Assembly (NCBI GenBank): GCA_944385175.1 | Contig: CALWWB010000008.1 | Span: 1 to 38,479 of the forward strand | Direction: 5' to 3' | Length of the DNA stretch: 38,479 nucleotides | From: an uncultured Oscillospiraceae bacterium | GTDB taxonomy: Bacteria > Bacillota > Clostridia > Oscillospirales > Oscillospiraceae | The notes under the pieces: generated by a model | Database searches by the model: none | What the model saw: only the letters and a program-made list of their open reading frames with translations | Told to the model about the DNA's origin: nothing | Shown: piece by piece, positions 10,990 to 22,590 of the stretch | Layout of the letters: the number at the start of each line of letters is the position of its first letter | Position numbering within the stretch: the first letter of the stretch is position 1 | Translations under genes and position numbers: made by a program

Positions 10990-11165
10990 ACAACTTAACA
11001 GAGGCGCGGTGTTCAAAAGTAACTCCCACGCAGCGACAGGAATCGCGGAGCGAAAGGGGCCACCGCCGAAGGGTATCTGTTTTCCTGGGCAGGTATCGCT
11101 GGGCCGACGGAGAATATCCGGCGGACTGTCGCGCAAGCGGAGAGCTGTCAGAGGGAATATCGCCT
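10990..11165 (+). promoter_or_regulatory. Lysine riboswitch (L box) aptamer
   Basis: The conserved L-box blocks occur in order: AGAGGCGCG (11000-11008), AAAAGTAA (11015-11022), a GGAGCGAAAGGGG segment near 11047, CCGCCGAAG (11063-11071), CTGGGC boxes near 11085 and 11099, and CTGTC near 11126 and 11145. GCGGTG (11005-11010) can pair with CACCGC (11061-11066), a family helix. Established L boxes bind lysine and switch off lysine synthesis or uptake genes. Here the aptamer precedes an intrinsic terminator and an NhaC-type transporter, so lysine should cause early termination. The edges are approximate. Confidence 0.88.
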
Positions 11166-18726: not shown

Positions 18727-18796
18727 TGAACATACATATTTGATTTTCAGCGAGACTTATTTACTGGTTTTAATTATCAATTGAAAATTGTCCTGC

Positions 18797-18809
18797 GGAT
18801 GCCGGGCAT
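18797..18809 (+). repeat. Decayed left copy of the post-nrdD terminator hairpin
   Basis: The segment GATGCCGGGCAT equals the intact hairpin at 19007-19029 minus 11 internal bases. It lies immediately left of the structured repeat element, whereas the intact hairpin lies immediately right. Confidence 0.55.
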
Positions 18810-19008
18810 GAGACAGTCAAAAGCCTCGCAGAGTTTTTCGCCCCAGCGAAAAACAAAAACAATCGTTTTCTGCGGCGACATGTGCGTCGCAGAAAACACT
18901 TCTCACGGAGCGAAGTGTCGAATTGTACGCCTTTGGCGTACAACCGAGGCATGGAGCGAAGTGCAATCCCCCTTGTCGAAGAAGGCTATGCCTTCTTCGA
19001 CAAGCTGA
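18810..19008 (+). repeat. Structured ~200-bp intergenic repeat, copy 1
   Basis: Most of the gap between nrdD and trxB is this element, closely similar to 22358-22560 in the same orientation. Predicted helices are a closing stem GCCTCG/CGAGGC (18823-18828 with 18945-18950) enclosing four hairpins: 18834-18853 (8 bp), 18865-18897 (about 13 bp), 18897-18917 (6 bp) and 18923-18943 (9 bp). A 15-bp hairpin follows at 18972-19004. The two ends form imperfect terminal inverted repeats (clearer in copy 2). No protein gene is credible: a minus-strand frame starting MPRLYA exists in both copies but has no ribosome site. It may be a MITE-like element or a repeated structured RNA. I know of no named family for it. 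Confidence 0.85.
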
Positions 19009-19034
19009 TGCCCGGCGGCTGCCGGGCATTTTTT
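19008..19034 (+). terminator. Terminator of the nrdG-nrdD operon, right of repeat copy 1
   Basis: A perfect 9-bp stem (19008-19016 with 19021-19029) and 4-base loop are followed by T6 (19029-19034). It directly abuts the repeat element and lies 24 bases before the trxB ATG. Confidence 0.85.
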
Positions 19035-19057
19035 CCATAGATATAAGGAGTTTTAAA

Positions 19058-19963
19058 ATGATATACGATATACTCATAATCGGCGGGGGTCCGGCGGGAC
19101 TTACCGCCGCCACCTACGGCTGCCGGGCAGGAAAGAGTGTCCTGGTGCTGGAAAAGGAAACCTTCGGCGGCCAGATCACTTGGTCCCCCAAGGTGGAAAA
19201 CTTTCCGGGCTTTGTCTCCATAAGCGGGGCGGAGCTGGGGGACAGATTCATGGAACAGGCCATGGAGCAGGGGGCCGAAGTGGAGCTGGAGGAGGCTGTC
19301 TCCGTAAGTATGGAGGGGGAGATTAAAACTGTCACCTGCGCCTCCGGAGCGGAGTTTAAGGGCCGCAGCCTGATAATTGCCGCCGGGGCCAAGCCCCGCA
19401 TGCTGGGCATAGAGCGGGAGGCGGAGCTGGTGGGCAACGGGGTCTGCTATTGCGCCGTATGCGACGGGGCCTTCTATAAGGGCAAGGCTGTGGCGGTGAA
19501 CGGCGGGGGCAACAGCGCCCTCCAGGACGCCCTGCTCCTCAGCGAGAAGTGCAGCAGGGTCTATCTCATCCACCGCCGGGACAGCTTCCGGGGCGAGGCC
19601 AAGCTGGTGGAGGCCCTGAAGCAGCGACAGAACGTGGAGTTTGTAATGAACAGCCGTATCAGCGCCCTGCTGGGCGGGGACGAGCTGGAGGGCATAGAGG
19701 TAAAGACCGGGGAGGAGAGCCGGGAGATACCGGTGGAGGGCCTCTTTGTGGCCATAGGCCACGCCCCGGATCTGGGGGCCTTCGGCTCCCTGATAGAGCT
19801 GGACGGCGGCGGCTACGCCGCCTCCGGGGAGGATTGCCTCACCAAAAGTGCCGGGGTCTTCGTGGCCGGGGACTGCCGGGAAAAGACCGTGCGCCAGCTG
19901 ACCACCGCTGTCTCCGACGGCTCTGCCGCCGCTCTGGCGGCCTGCGCCTGGCTGGACAGCTGA
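19058..19963 (+). CDS. trxB: Thioredoxin reductase
   Basis: FAD- and NADPH-dependent flavoenzyme of 301 residues that reduces thioredoxin-like proteins. It shows the FAD-binding IIGGGPAGLTAA, the second nucleotide site GGGNSALQDALLL with NADPH phosphate contacts HRRDSFR, the redox-active CAVC in NGVCYCAVCDGAF, and a C-terminal GVFVAGDCREKTVRQ FAD motif. The length is normal for the low-molecular-weight class. AAGGAG lies 7 bases before ATG 19058; the frame is open upstream only through the repeat element. I see no convincing promoter between the terminator and the start, so readthrough or a promoter inside the repeat is needed. Its position suggests it serves the redoxin fused to NrdD. Confidence 0.93.
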   Translation: MIYDILIIGGGPAGLTAATYGCRAGKSVLVLEKETFGGQITWSPKVENFPGFVSISGAELGDRFMEQAMEQGAEVELEEAVSVSMEGEIKTVTCASGAEFKGRSLIIAAGAKPRMLGIEREAELVGNGVCYCAVCDGAFYKGKAVAVNGGGNSALQDALLLSEKCSRVYLIHRRDSFRGEAKLVEALKQRQNVEFVMNSRISALLGGDELEGIEVKTGEESREIPVEGLFVAIGHAPDLGAFGSLIELDGGGYAASGEDCLTKSAGVFVAGDCREKTVRQLTTAVSDGSAAALAACAWLDS

Positions 19964-19979
19964 GAAGGGAGCGAATATA

Positions 19980-20684
19980 TTGAAGCGTTTTATTGTAGAT
20001 AAGGCGGTGTTTGAAAAACTGCCGGACTACTGCATAGGAGTGGTGGCGGCCCTGGGCCTTGATAACCGGAAGCACAATGAGGCTCTGGAAAAGCTGCTGG
20101 ATGAGGCGGCGGCCGGGTTTGCCGCTGCCAATAAAAATACCAATATAAGGGAGCTGCCGGGGGTGAAGGCCTGCCGGGAGGCTTTTCATACCTTGGGCAT
20201 AAACCCCAACAAGTTCCTGTGCTCCATAGAGTCCCTGATGAAGCGGGTGCAAAAGAGCGGCGCCCTGCCCCATATCAATACGGTGGTGGATCTGGGCAAC
20301 GCCTTTTCCCTGAACTATGGGCTGCCTATGGGCGCTCACGACGTGGACAAGATGGAAGAGGATATGGAGATACGCTTCTCCACAGCCGCCGACCACTTCC
20401 AGCCTATGGGAGAGACCGAAACGGAGAATATGCCTGAGGGTGAGCTGGTATATGTCAGCGGCAATACCGTGAAGACCCGCCGTTGGGTATGGCGCCAGAG
20501 CGAGGACGGCAAGATAGGCCCGGACACCTGCAATGTGTTTTTCCCTATAGACGGCTTCAAGGGCGTCAATGAGGAGACTGTCATCAAGGTCAGGGATGAG
20601 CTGGCCCGGCTGCTGAAGGAGGACTTCGGTTGCGAGGTTTTCACGGGCTTTGTGGATAAGGACAATAACGGTTTTGAATTCTGA
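19980..20684 (+). CDS. B3/B4 (PheRS beta editing-like) domain protein
   Basis: Cytoplasmic protein of 234 residues whose whole length fits the free-standing B3/B4 domain family, related to the editing domain of phenylalanyl-tRNA synthetase beta subunit. Recognisable parts are the central ELPGVKACREAFHTLGINPNKF, the ALPHINTVVDLGNAFSL segment and GLPMGAHDVDK. Free-standing members are proposed to edit mischarged tRNA or a related ligand; the substrate is not known here. The start is TTG 19980, with GGGAG 8 bases upstream and no better ATG. It lies 16 bases after trxB on the same strand, so it is probably co-transcribed, though no functional link is evident. A long terminator follows. Confidence 0.85.
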   Translation: MKRFIVDKAVFEKLPDYCIGVVAALGLDNRKHNEALEKLLDEAAAGFAAANKNTNIRELPGVKACREAFHTLGINPNKFLCSIESLMKRVQKSGALPHINTVVDLGNAFSLNYGLPMGAHDVDKMEEDMEIRFSTAADHFQPMGETETENMPEGELVYVSGNTVKTRRWVWRQSEDGKIGPDTCNVFFPIDGFKGVNEETVIKVRDELARLLKEDFGCEVFTGFVDKDNNGFEF

Positions 20685-20709
20685 CGGCAGCTTGAGATAA
20701 AATCCGAGA

Positions 20710-20757
20710 GAACAGGAAAAAGGGCCACCCCACAGGGGGCGGCCCTTTTTCCTGTTC
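20710..20757. terminator. Terminator after the B3/B4 gene
   Basis: A 17-bp perfect outer stem (20710-20726 with 20741-20757) continues inward as CCCC/GGGG. The stem itself contains A5 and T5 runs, so it can stop transcription in either direction. Confidence 0.85.
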
Positions 20758-20824
20758 AATACCGGACGGAGGGCATGGGGATATTATAAGAATCCCTGGC
20801 GAAGCTGATTCAATTAATTTTGAA

Positions 20825-20853
20825 TTGACCTTACGTATACGATATGATAATCT
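20825..20853 (+). promoter_or_regulatory. Sigma-A promoter for the DUF2752-CD225 genes
   Basis: TTGACC (20825-20830) and TAATCT (20848-20853) are 17 bases apart. The leader would be over 100 bases long if translation starts at 20971 or 21004. Confidence 0.5.
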
Positions 20854-21003
20854 TTTATATAGATTGAAGAGTGAGAAAACGGAACGCGGGTACAGCGAAA
20901 CGGGTGTTTGGGACTGGGTATAAGGGCAAGCTCCCAGTATGACAGGCAAAGGCTTATGGCAGGACAGCTCATGGAGAATAGATTCCGAGCTGGCCAGAGG
21001 GTA

Positions 21004-21426
21004 ATGATCAGGGAGAAAAAGTTGAAAGAGATAAAACCGTGGCTGCGGTGGTGCATAGGATTATGCCTGCCCCTTTTGGCGATCCTGGCCTTTATTTACA
21101 TTAAATGGGTGGGCATTGGGATGATCTGCCTGTTTTATGAGCTCACGGGCCTCTATTGTCCAGGCTGCGGCTCCGGCAGAGCCGTCACCGCTCTGCTCCA
21201 GGGGAAGGTCGGTACCGCTTTTTCTGCCAATATATTGCTTTTCCTGCTGGGCATACCCAGTGCCGCCGTATTTATCCATGAGTATTTGCGCTTAGTTTTT
21301 CCAAAGCTGGGCCTGCGGCCGGTGTACATACCGCAGTGGGCCGTAAGGCTGTGCCTGGGGTTGATCCTCGCTTTTTGGGTCCTCAGGAATATACCGGCTT
21401 TTTCATTCCTGGCACCGGCAGGATGA
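21004..21426 (+). CDS. DUF2752 membrane protein
   Basis: Small membrane protein of about 140 residues, DUF2752 family, with three hydrophobic segments. The family signature is the loop ELTGLYCPGCGSGRAVTALLQG, with a CPGCG cysteine pair and following Arg between helices 1 and 2. Function is unknown; the cysteines could bind metal or be redox-active. The start is unresolved: ATG 21004 gives the N-terminus MIREKKLKEIKPW and has AGAGGG only 3 bases away; ATG 20971 has AGGA 6 bases upstream and would add 11 residues. Two CD225 proteins follow on the same strand with a gap of 47 bases, so the three probably form one unit. Confidence 0.8.
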   Translation: MIREKKLKEIKPWLRWCIGLCLPLLAILAFIYIKWVGIGMICLFYELTGLYCPGCGSGRAVTALLQGKVGTAFSANILLFLLGIPSAAVFIHEYLRLVFPKLGLRPVYIPQWAVRLCLGLILAFWVLRNIPAFSFLAPAG

Positions 21427-21473
21427 GGGTATGCCCCGGCAGATAACTCCACAGACAGAGAGGATTGAAAAAC

Positions 21474-21836
21474 ATGGTGAAAAATTACTGCCCCCACTGC
21501 GGCGGGCAGAATATCAACGACGGGGATACCTGCGCTTATTGCGGATATGTATTCCCCGTGGCCCGGGAGAACCCAGTGCCGGAGGAAAACCGGGCGGAAC
21601 CCTATCCCACAGGGGGACTGCTGGCCTGGTCCATAATTACTCTGCTGCTGTGTATGATCCCGGGTATCGTGGCCCTGGTGAAGGTGGCCGGTATAAATGC
21701 CGGTTGGTCCCGTGAAGAGCAGGAGCAGCAGGCCAGGAGCGTGAAAAACTGGTGCCTGGCGGGGACGATTCTGGGTGCTGTTCCCATATTGATATACATT
21801 GTTATGCTTGTTGCAGCTATATTGAATTGGATTTGA
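21474..21836 (+). CDS. Zinc-ribbon CD225/dispanin-like membrane protein 1
   Basis: Protein of 120 residues. An N-terminal zinc ribbon (CPHCG at about residue 6 and CAYCG at about 20) is followed by a short Pro/Glu-rich linker and a CD225/dispanin region with two membrane segments: GGLLAWSIITLLLCMIPGIVALV and a C-terminal helix around ILGAVPILIYIVMLVAAIL. In animals CD225 proteins include the antiviral IFITMs, which alter membrane fusion. Bacterial members are of unknown role. I chose ATG 21474, with AGAGAGG about 10 bases upstream; TTG 21465 lies too close to that site. The next gene is a paralogue, so the pair arose by tandem duplication. Confidence 0.82.
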   Translation: MVKNYCPHCGGQNINDGDTCAYCGYVFPVARENPVPEENRAEPYPTGGLLAWSIITLLLCMIPGIVALVKVAGINAGWSREEQEQQARSVKNWCLAGTILGAVPILIYIVMLVAAILNWI

Positions 21837-21919
21837 ATATCCAGACTGGAAGGCAAGGCTTTGAGCATATGTCCCCCCAAGGGGAGTAAAAATAAAAGGA
21901 GAATTTGGAGGTAAAAGAG

Positions 21920-22261
21920 ATGAAAATTTGTCCTCGCTGCGGCAATCAAAATGAAGACAGCGCAGCCTTCTGCTCCAACTGCGGTATGGATATGGGGCGG
22001 AGCACGGCTCCGGCCGGGTATTCCCATCAGCGGCCTGAGCATTATCCCACCGGGGGCCTGATGGCCTGGTCAATAATCACCCTGCTGCTGTGCACCATCC
22101 CGGGTATAGTTGCCCTTGTAATGACCTGCAATATCAATAATGCGGCCAACTGGGAGCAGCAGCAAAAGCAGATAAAAAATGCAAAGACCTGGTGCATAGT
22201 AGGCACGGTACTGGGCTGCCTGGCTCTGCTGCTCGGCATAGTCGGGGCTCTCGCGGCATAA
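21920..22261 (+). CDS. Zinc-ribbon CD225/dispanin-like membrane protein 2
   Basis: Protein of 113 residues, paralogue of the upstream gene with the same plan. The zinc ribbon (CPRCG at about residue 4 and CSNCG at about 19) is followed by a linker and the CD225 region GGLMAWSIITLLLCTIPGIVALV. A cytoplasmic loop rich in Gln and Asn (NWEQQQKQIKNAK) and a last helix GTVLGCLALLLGIVGAL complete it. The membrane segment is nearly identical to its neighbour while the loops differ, so that segment is the conserved part. I chose ATG 21920, with GGAGG 8 bases upstream; TTG 21905 overlaps the ribosome site. It ends the DUF2752-CD225 unit; the second structured repeat follows. Confidence 0.82.
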   Translation: MKICPRCGNQNEDSAAFCSNCGMDMGRSTAPAGYSHQRPEHYPTGGLMAWSIITLLLCTIPGIVALVMTCNINNAANWEQQQKQIKNAKTWCIVGTVLGCLALLLGIVGALAA

Positions 22262-22330
22262 GGGCCTATCACGCTTCAGATTCCGGTAACGGAATGTGCA
22301 TAAAGAGGTCAGACCTCTTATGGTACAAAA

Positions 22331-22357
22331 AAGCAGTCTGTTTTTAACAGACTGCTT
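22331..22357 (-). terminator. Left copy of the duplicated terminator hairpin (serves pyrB-pyrI)
   Basis: A perfect 12-bp stem (22331-22342 with 22346-22357) has a T3 loop. The A6 run at 22327-22332 gives a U-run on the minus strand, so this copy can stop pyrB-pyrI transcription. It is 26 of 27 bases identical to 22560-22586. Confidence 0.75.
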
Positions 22358-22560
22358 GAGATTGTCGAAAAAGCCTCGCAGAGTTTTTTCGCTGCAGCGA
22401 AAAAATAAATTCAATCGTTTTCTGCGGCGGCGTGTACGTCGCAGAAAACACTTCTCACGGAGCGAAGTGTCGAATTGTACGCCTCTGGCGTACAACCGAG
22501 GCATGGAGCGAAGTGCAATCCCTTTTGTCGAAGAAGACAAAGTCTTCTTCGACAAGCTGA
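22358..22560 (+). repeat. Structured ~200-bp intergenic repeat, copy 2
   Basis: Second copy of the element at 18810-19008, same orientation, filling the gap between the CD225 pair and convergent pyrI. The closing stem is 22373-22378 with 22497-22502. Hairpins lie at 22384-22405 (10 bp), 22417-22449 (about 13 bp), 22449-22469 (6 bp), 22475-22495 (9 bp) and 22525-22555 (14 bp). The last hairpin has an A-T pair next to its loop where copy 1 has a G-C pair, a compensatory change. The ends form a 16-base imperfect terminal inverted repeat (13 matches: GAGATTGTCGAAAAAG against the complement of CTTCTTCGACAAGCTG). It is flanked on both sides by the same terminator hairpin. Confidence 0.87.
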
Positions 22561-22590
22561 AGCAGCCTGTTTTTAACAGACTGCTTTTTT
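22560..22590 (+). terminator. Right copy of the duplicated terminator hairpin (serves the CD225 genes)
   Basis: A 12-bp stem with one C/A mismatch (22560-22571 with 22575-22586) is followed by a T-run to 22590. It is the plus-strand half of what appears to have been one bidirectional terminator. Confidence 0.75.

Follow-up and report, generated by a model that had tools for sequence, protein, structure and literature searches.

The window analysed here, a stretch of 38,479 nucleotides from an uncultured Oscillospiraceae bacterium (GCA_944385175.1, contig CALWWB010000008.1, positions 1 to 38,479), carries two intergenic repeats of about 200 bp on its forward strand. Copy 1 (18810–19008, reading GAGACAGTC..CAAGCTGA) is flanked by nrdD-like and trxB-like genes, and copy 2 (22358–22560, reading GAGATTGTC..GACAAGCTGA) has a zinc-ribbon gene on one side and a pyrI-like gene of the opposite strand on the other, these gene names being our reading of the open reading frames (ORFs). 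The near identity of the two copies, pointed out in an earlier note on this DNA, is confirmed, at 91% both within a 163-nt ungapped block and over a 190-base query. Judging from their many copies, target duplications, empty sites in sister genomes, ends shared with IS1182-family elements and covarying core, we consider it highly probable that these repeats belong to a non-autonomous family resembling miniature inverted-repeat transposable elements (MITEs), which has a folded core and is moved by an IS1182-type transposase through duplication of a whole hairpin.

Folded together with their flanks, both copies give a minimum-energy structure in which a GCCTCG/CGAGGC stem encloses four hairpins and a terminal hairpin follows, as the earlier note had drawn it, and for neither copy does any of 200 dinucleotide shuffles equal this fold (z-scores of −9.35 for copy 1 and −10.82 for copy 2). 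The core of the element consists of hairpins H1 (18834–18853 in copy 1, 22385–22404 in copy 2) and H2 (18865–18897, with a conserved G.U pair and the loop ACATGTG at 18878–18884, in copy 1; 22417–22449, with the loop GCGTGTA at 22430–22436, in copy 2). The terminal hairpin lies at 18972–19004 and 22524–22556; in copy 1 the right terminal inverted repeat shares bases with the 3' arm of this hairpin. In an alignment of 33 copies from the source genome this hairpin contains a compensatory pair, G-C in 20 rows and A-U in 11; the change noticed between the two window copies is thus real, and sits one pair below the loop-closing C-G rather than next to the loop. In contrast, the closing stem shows no compensatory change among these 33 copies, three of its six pairs varying on one side only and the other three having only unpaired cells as variants, and it is absent from the consensus fold of the own-genome copies; it is a predicted pairing, favoured by folding energy only. 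Selection for structure, as proposed earlier, is accordingly supported for H1, H2 and, within the source genome, the terminal hairpin, and finds no support in the closing stem. Long-range pairings (a "stem 3" and a loop-to-3' pairing) have, among own-genome copies, one compensated pair in each of two helices, in three rows each, and a generic scan for such pairing gave a median of 6, barely higher than the 5.3 of shuffled sequences, with scores of at least 8 in 34 of 139 against 1 of 139; we make no claim from either.

The ends of the element are indeed inverted repeats of each other, though imperfect ones (GAGACTGTCRAAAAA compared with the complement of TTCTTCGACAAGCTGA). The termini can be written as GAGACTGTC.. 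at one end and ..GACAAGCTGA at the other; copy 1 has the ends GAGACAGTC and GACAAGCTGA and copy 2 the ends GAGATTGTCGA and GACAAGCTGA; both are of the type that we call A. No transposase gene lies inside the element, and the overlapping ORFs of at least 100 aa enter it from outside.

A DNA search with copy 1 recovers at least 40 copies in the genome from which the window derives (G000; 2.23 Mb in 146 contigs, 90.6% complete), including partial ones and some truncated at contig ends. This is a lower bound, with 40 of 77 first-look candidates scored (L001–L040, in which the window copies are L001 and L008). The 5' end GAGACTGTCRAAAAA also begins other bodies in this genome, namely those of type B, those of chimeras that start out as type A, and a minimal copy of 39 bp. 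The type B family (GCATGGGGAGAGCGCAGAGAGGGGA.. and relatives; L042, L096, L099, L105, L108, L110, L113, L116, L121 and L122) has, when aligned, similar, IS1182-like ends, and the chimeras (L048, L049, L051 and L058) join the type A 5' part to a different 3' body (CCGAATCAAAGCCCAGCG.. and similar), which suggests module exchange. The minimal element, on the reverse strand of L043 at position 1595, is hardly more than both ends and is flanked by two different hairpins. At L101, a type-B-like 5' end is followed by an ORF that we take to be TnpV-like, and another mobile gene may lie inside or beside this element.

Could the repeats be no more than an ordinary decaying repeat or an assembly artefact, their fold being that of a palindromic repeat amplified in one genome? 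The source is a metagenome-assembled genome whose contigs often break at the element, and at three copies (L003 and L011 on contig C24, L030 on contig C7) the flanking hairpins look, by eye, as if exchanged between copies, through either inter-element recombination or misassembly. Nonetheless, the same core occurs in many independent assemblies, that of a named strain included, its stems covary, and filled and empty sites are found in sister genomes, all of which make this explanation very improbable.

The flanks of the element reveal a feature beyond the earlier note. At most copies a terminator-like hairpin ends the left flank and the same hairpin begins the right flank. We could compare the flanks of 28 of the 40 copies (12 were omitted as partial or near a contig end, including L021 and L039, where a duplication is visible by eye), and in 19 of the 28 a segment of 25–35 bases with a 10–14-bp stem is duplicated at the element ends, while in a cross-locus control 3 of 756 flank pairings match at the same score. 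Copy 2 is among the 19: its left hairpin copy (22331–22357) and the right terminator-like hairpin with its T tract (22560–22590) share a 27-base repeat of 96% identity. The left hairpin of copy 1 (18789–18809) is decayed, 86% like the right copy in the terminator-like hairpin and T tract at 19008–19033, and its score of 13 falls below the cut; by eye, the left hairpin is intact at the same place in the sister genomes G003 and G016 (L067, L068).

The position of the tracts may bear on transcription. A T-rich stretch (at least 6 of 12 nt) comes after the right hairpin copy in 13 of the 19 cases, compared with 4 for the left copy, and A-rich sequence lies ahead of the left copy in 14, compared with 6 for the right copy. 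Because the inner hairpin copies mostly lack these tracts, transcription would be expected to enter the element from either side and to stop at the outer hairpin. Around copies in relatives the neighbouring genes are convergent in 30 cases, tandem with the element in sense in 20, tandem in antisense in 19 and divergent in 12 (n = 81, from 106 copies tested under a crude ORF rule, with 25 dropped for short ORFs and an uncounted number near locus ends excluded earlier), which is consistent with insertion favouring the ends of genes irrespective of strand. For all 40 own-genome copies the same kind of crude rule gives +/− 14, +/+ 9, −/− 4, −/+ 2 and one side missing in 11; a sense-strand bias in this genome is only suggestive, and the gene calls at L001 and L008 look wrong against the window's own genes.

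We sought the flanks of ten own copies in two sister genomes, G003 and G016, and eight sites were comparable (L004 gave no match and L029 matched with one flank only). At five of these eight (L002, L005, L009, L014 and L024) one or both sister genomes have a single corresponding hairpin that holds no element. At L002 the element is present in G016 and the site is empty in G003; at L009 the hairpin of G016 corresponds and that of G003 is unrelated. At L007 and L028 the sister genome has one hairpin, which is unrelated, and no element. At the L018 site the same terminator in G016 holds an element of type B, as typed by eye, in reverse orientation. The compared sites thus show that insertion duplicates the hairpin, and that one target is used by two different bodies with similar ends. 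The many copies in the host, the covarying stems of the two core hairpins and the single-hairpin sites in sister strains bear out the mobile, structured, miniature-transposon-like element that the earlier note had suggested. The pyrI side of copy 2 matched 17 of 30 genomes, of which G003 and G016 were read; there the element is absent and the neighbouring gene is a different one, and we did not count this as an empty site.

Which enzyme may move these elements is suggested by their ends, whose resemblance to those of IS1182-family insertion sequences is a further point beyond the earlier note. A frequent 5' end in sister species is CAGACTGTAGACAAAC, and at L118 (genome G029) such an end runs directly into a transposase frame with a DUF772 domain, broken by the contig end, whose 154-residue fragment has matches in 8 of 61 genomes of the genus, source included. 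The 494-residue transposase of L129 in G016 matches the IS1182 family transposase model NF033551 at 389.8 bits (cut-off 270), together with PF13751, PF05598 and PF01609, and the IS1182-family elements in related genomes have ends similar to those of the repeat family, from which they differ in carrying a transposase. Relatives of the L129 transposase, with 49–61% identity, also occur on three viral contigs (L325, L326 and L327). Long duplications of the IS1634 type were considered as the source of the flank repeats and rejected, the transposase beside matching ends being that of IS1182.

Taken together, an IS1182-family transposase most likely mobilises the elements in trans, as far as the shared ends can tell, and such a partner is present in the sister genome G016. 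We propose that the transposase would attack both feet of a terminator hairpin, presented as a cruciform or a folded strand, and that repair would then copy the whole hairpin onto both sides of the element. In most cases the A-rich tract is left on the outer side of the left copy, and the T-rich tract on that of the right copy; since these outer tracts are retained, a working terminator likely survives on each outer side, and the element would become part of the 3' untranslated region (UTR) of the neighbouring genes. A terminator-splitting insertion of this kind suggests a route by which a mobile element could enter many transcripts without harm to genes.

This scheme has a close precedent in IS1272, a member of the IS1182 family, which targets hairpins, five of them confirmed terminators, and which, similar to the elements described here, often inserts at terminators with no primary-sequence preference (PMC4923244; PMC5678879). 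IS1272 (TnSha1) deletes the stem-loop wholly or in part and leaves the target unduplicated (PMC4923244; PMC5678879), while our elements duplicate the complete hairpin. That outcome corresponds to the hypothetical "pathway b" of Wan et al., in which joining at the 5' feet of the cruciform would duplicate the whole stem-loop (PMC5678879). The filled and empty sites described above provide natural examples of such duplication by elements with IS1182-type ends, which in print we found only as this drawn hypothesis (PMC5678879).

Several observations weigh against our interpretation, in addition to the deletion of the hairpin by IS1272. Nine of the 28 copies, window copy 1 among them, have no full hairpin duplication above the cut. 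Among four IS1182-family elements with both ends visible, duplicated hairpins flank two (L136/L321 in G016, with an interrupted frame, and L320 in G084), and the other two (L129/L317 and the shorter L318) have different hairpins on each side. Two transposase queries found no IS1182 transposase in the 146 contigs of the 90.6% complete source genome. Eleven IS1182 loci searched with the core model gave no match, and so the repeat is not a simple deletion derivative of the IS1182-family elements seen; descent of its body from a parent element is unsupported among these loci, and a parent may lie outside them. Finally, some core copies lack clear IS1182-like ends, for instance at L075 and L091 (G042) and at several other loci, and not every core copy need then move by the IS1182 route.

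Similar to prokaryotic MITEs such as QMITE of Coxiella and BOX, RUP and SPRITE of pneumococcus, the elements are short, occur in many copies, have terminal inverted repeats and cause target duplications; MITEs, according to a review, are thought to be mobilised in trans by related insertion sequences, and their transcripts are expected to fold (PMC10969869). The elements differ from them in having a core that covaries across many genera and that is not found in the IS1182 loci fetched, and in targeting a whole 25–35-bp hairpin, whereas the review describes AT-rich intergenic sites and makes no mention of IS1182 (PMC10969869).

The family extends well beyond the source genome. A DNA search was positive in 19 of 60 genomes, own included, and a search with the core model, restricted to genomes at least 85% complete, in 34 of 247 genomes of the order and 21 of 137 genera, with no more than 17 matches counted per genome. 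Of these positives, 19 belong to the own family (26 genomes searched, the source among them) and 15 lie beyond it; several of those beyond it are weak, with E near 1e-4. In named genomes an exact-pattern scan found at least 108 stretches; among the 80 matches listed, carriers have Oscillospiraceae, Ruminococcaceae, Clostridia or related clostridial names, one being "Firmicutes bacterium CAG:103", and include Oscillibacter sp. ER4 and Pseudoflavonifractor sp. An184. Vescimonas fastidiosa MM35 (NZ_AP023416.1) has the element at 17 places on one record, and the one copy inspected there lies between rpoC and an ABC-transporter gene, with no listed gene on the copy. Four copies were found in G217, with a duplicated hairpin, by eye, at three of them. 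Viral sequences also give matches: a core copy occurs in an IMG/VR viral contig (L246:182–216) whose ORFs resemble, by eye, phage structural genes, and part of copy 1 has matches in four human-faecal phage records.

The two-hairpin core covaries strongly across this range. In 62 diverse copies aligned without reference to structure, 97.1% of the cells are paired, compared with 45–57% in slid controls, and 16 of 22 pairs have changes on both sides; among 500 shuffles none reached the paired percentage, none the covariation score and one the 16 pairs. Since an exact pattern and a parsed H2 entered into the choice of these copies, the constancy of GCCTCGCAGAGTTT and of the loop motif in this set is imposed by that choice and is not evidence. 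A second alignment, of 102 distinct rows drawn from 108 covariance-model matches in 100 searched loci, has 97.9% of cells paired (48–61% in slid controls) and changes on both sides at 19 of 22 pairs, a number reached by 6 of 500 shuffles; its rows are fitted to the model, and many of the model's seeds are among them. One H2 pair is a nearly fixed wobble (G.U in 70 of 97 rows, A-U in 15, C-G in 6, G-C in 1 and unpaired or other in 5), and the H2 loops GCGTGTA, ACATGTG and ACATGCG jointly account for 82 of the 102 rows. A count of 130 of 141 parsed H2 loops (of 165) is biased, because the parser required the loop motif, and 82 of 102 is the unforced figure. The base of the terminal hairpin is a T.G pair in 26 of the 33 own-copy rows.

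What is the form in which this core is selected? The inner hairpins may act as folded DNA, either aiding a hairpin-seeking transposase or being kept palindromic by template switching, and have no function as RNA. Mismatches in the variable core pairs are about equally G.U and A.C (19 and 22), insertions occur in either orientation, and hairpin-forming DNA is what IS1272 recognises (PMC4923244; PMC5678879). Correction of palindromes should, however, erase the G.U (G.T in DNA) of H2 and the T.G at the base of the terminal hairpin, and the recurring loop states would be left unexplained. We hold this possibility tentatively, as a serious one that we would nevertheless not favour.

Alternatively, the inner fold may be a functional structured RNA, a cis-acting module of the 3' UTR or a trans-acting small RNA, kept by selection on the RNA and with the IS1182-like ends only as its vehicle. 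The strong covariation of the core across many genera points in this direction, as do the nearly fixed wobble pair, the prevalence of three loop states, the lack of a core match in the 11 IS1182 loci and the tract positions that suggest read-in from outside. Against this, copies in relatives show no orientation bias to genes (20 sense versus 19 antisense tandem), and outside the fixed pair G.U has no clear excess over A.C, 14 of the 22 A.C mismatches falling at one pair, without which the counts are 18 and 8. These counts give no ground for choosing RNA over DNA as the form under selection, and we regard this alternative as somewhat doubtful. The fixed wobble pair and the recurring loop states speak for recognition of a folded single strand by some partner. 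Acting as RNA, the core would amount to a large, unexplored layer of regulation; acting as DNA, it would be relevant to the working of hairpin-seeking transposases.

This widespread, strongly covarying non-coding element of a group of gut bacteria was not found in our searches of Rfam 15. At the gathering score, the matches in the whole window are limited to a lysine riboswitch and a tRNA, with nothing on the element, in line with the earlier note, which recognised no named family. At E ≤ 0.5, 12 element-bearing loci gave nine matches, none assigned to the element; malK-I (L089) and 6S (L081) pass the gathering score but adjoin it, and the sub-gathering matches near it, His_leader (L079) and mir-5615 and sX14 (L091), are taken as chance because each is confined to one locus. 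In the literature searched, which left out most subscription papers, no earlier account of the family was found. Group IIC introns also insert beside terminator hairpins, and in this placement they resemble the element; they are large ribozymes with domains of their own and are not known to duplicate the hairpin, and neither the window nor the 12 loci yielded an intron match in Rfam. A bolder proposal would be that of a new structured RNA class of Oscillospiraceae and relatives, carried as cargo of IS1182-type ends and seeded into terminators, which would place a dispersed 3' UTR module with a common sensor or processing site behind dozens of genes per genome while leaving the terminators unbroken; we deem this unlikely.

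Two further features of the window deserve mention. Upstream of copy 2, at 21465–22261, two similar small ORFs in tandem resemble zinc-ribbon membrane proteins, and G003 and G016 have another gene after pyrI. The lysine riboswitch lies at 10991–11155 (RF00168, 81.3 bits), upstream of an ORF that is, by eye, transporter-like.

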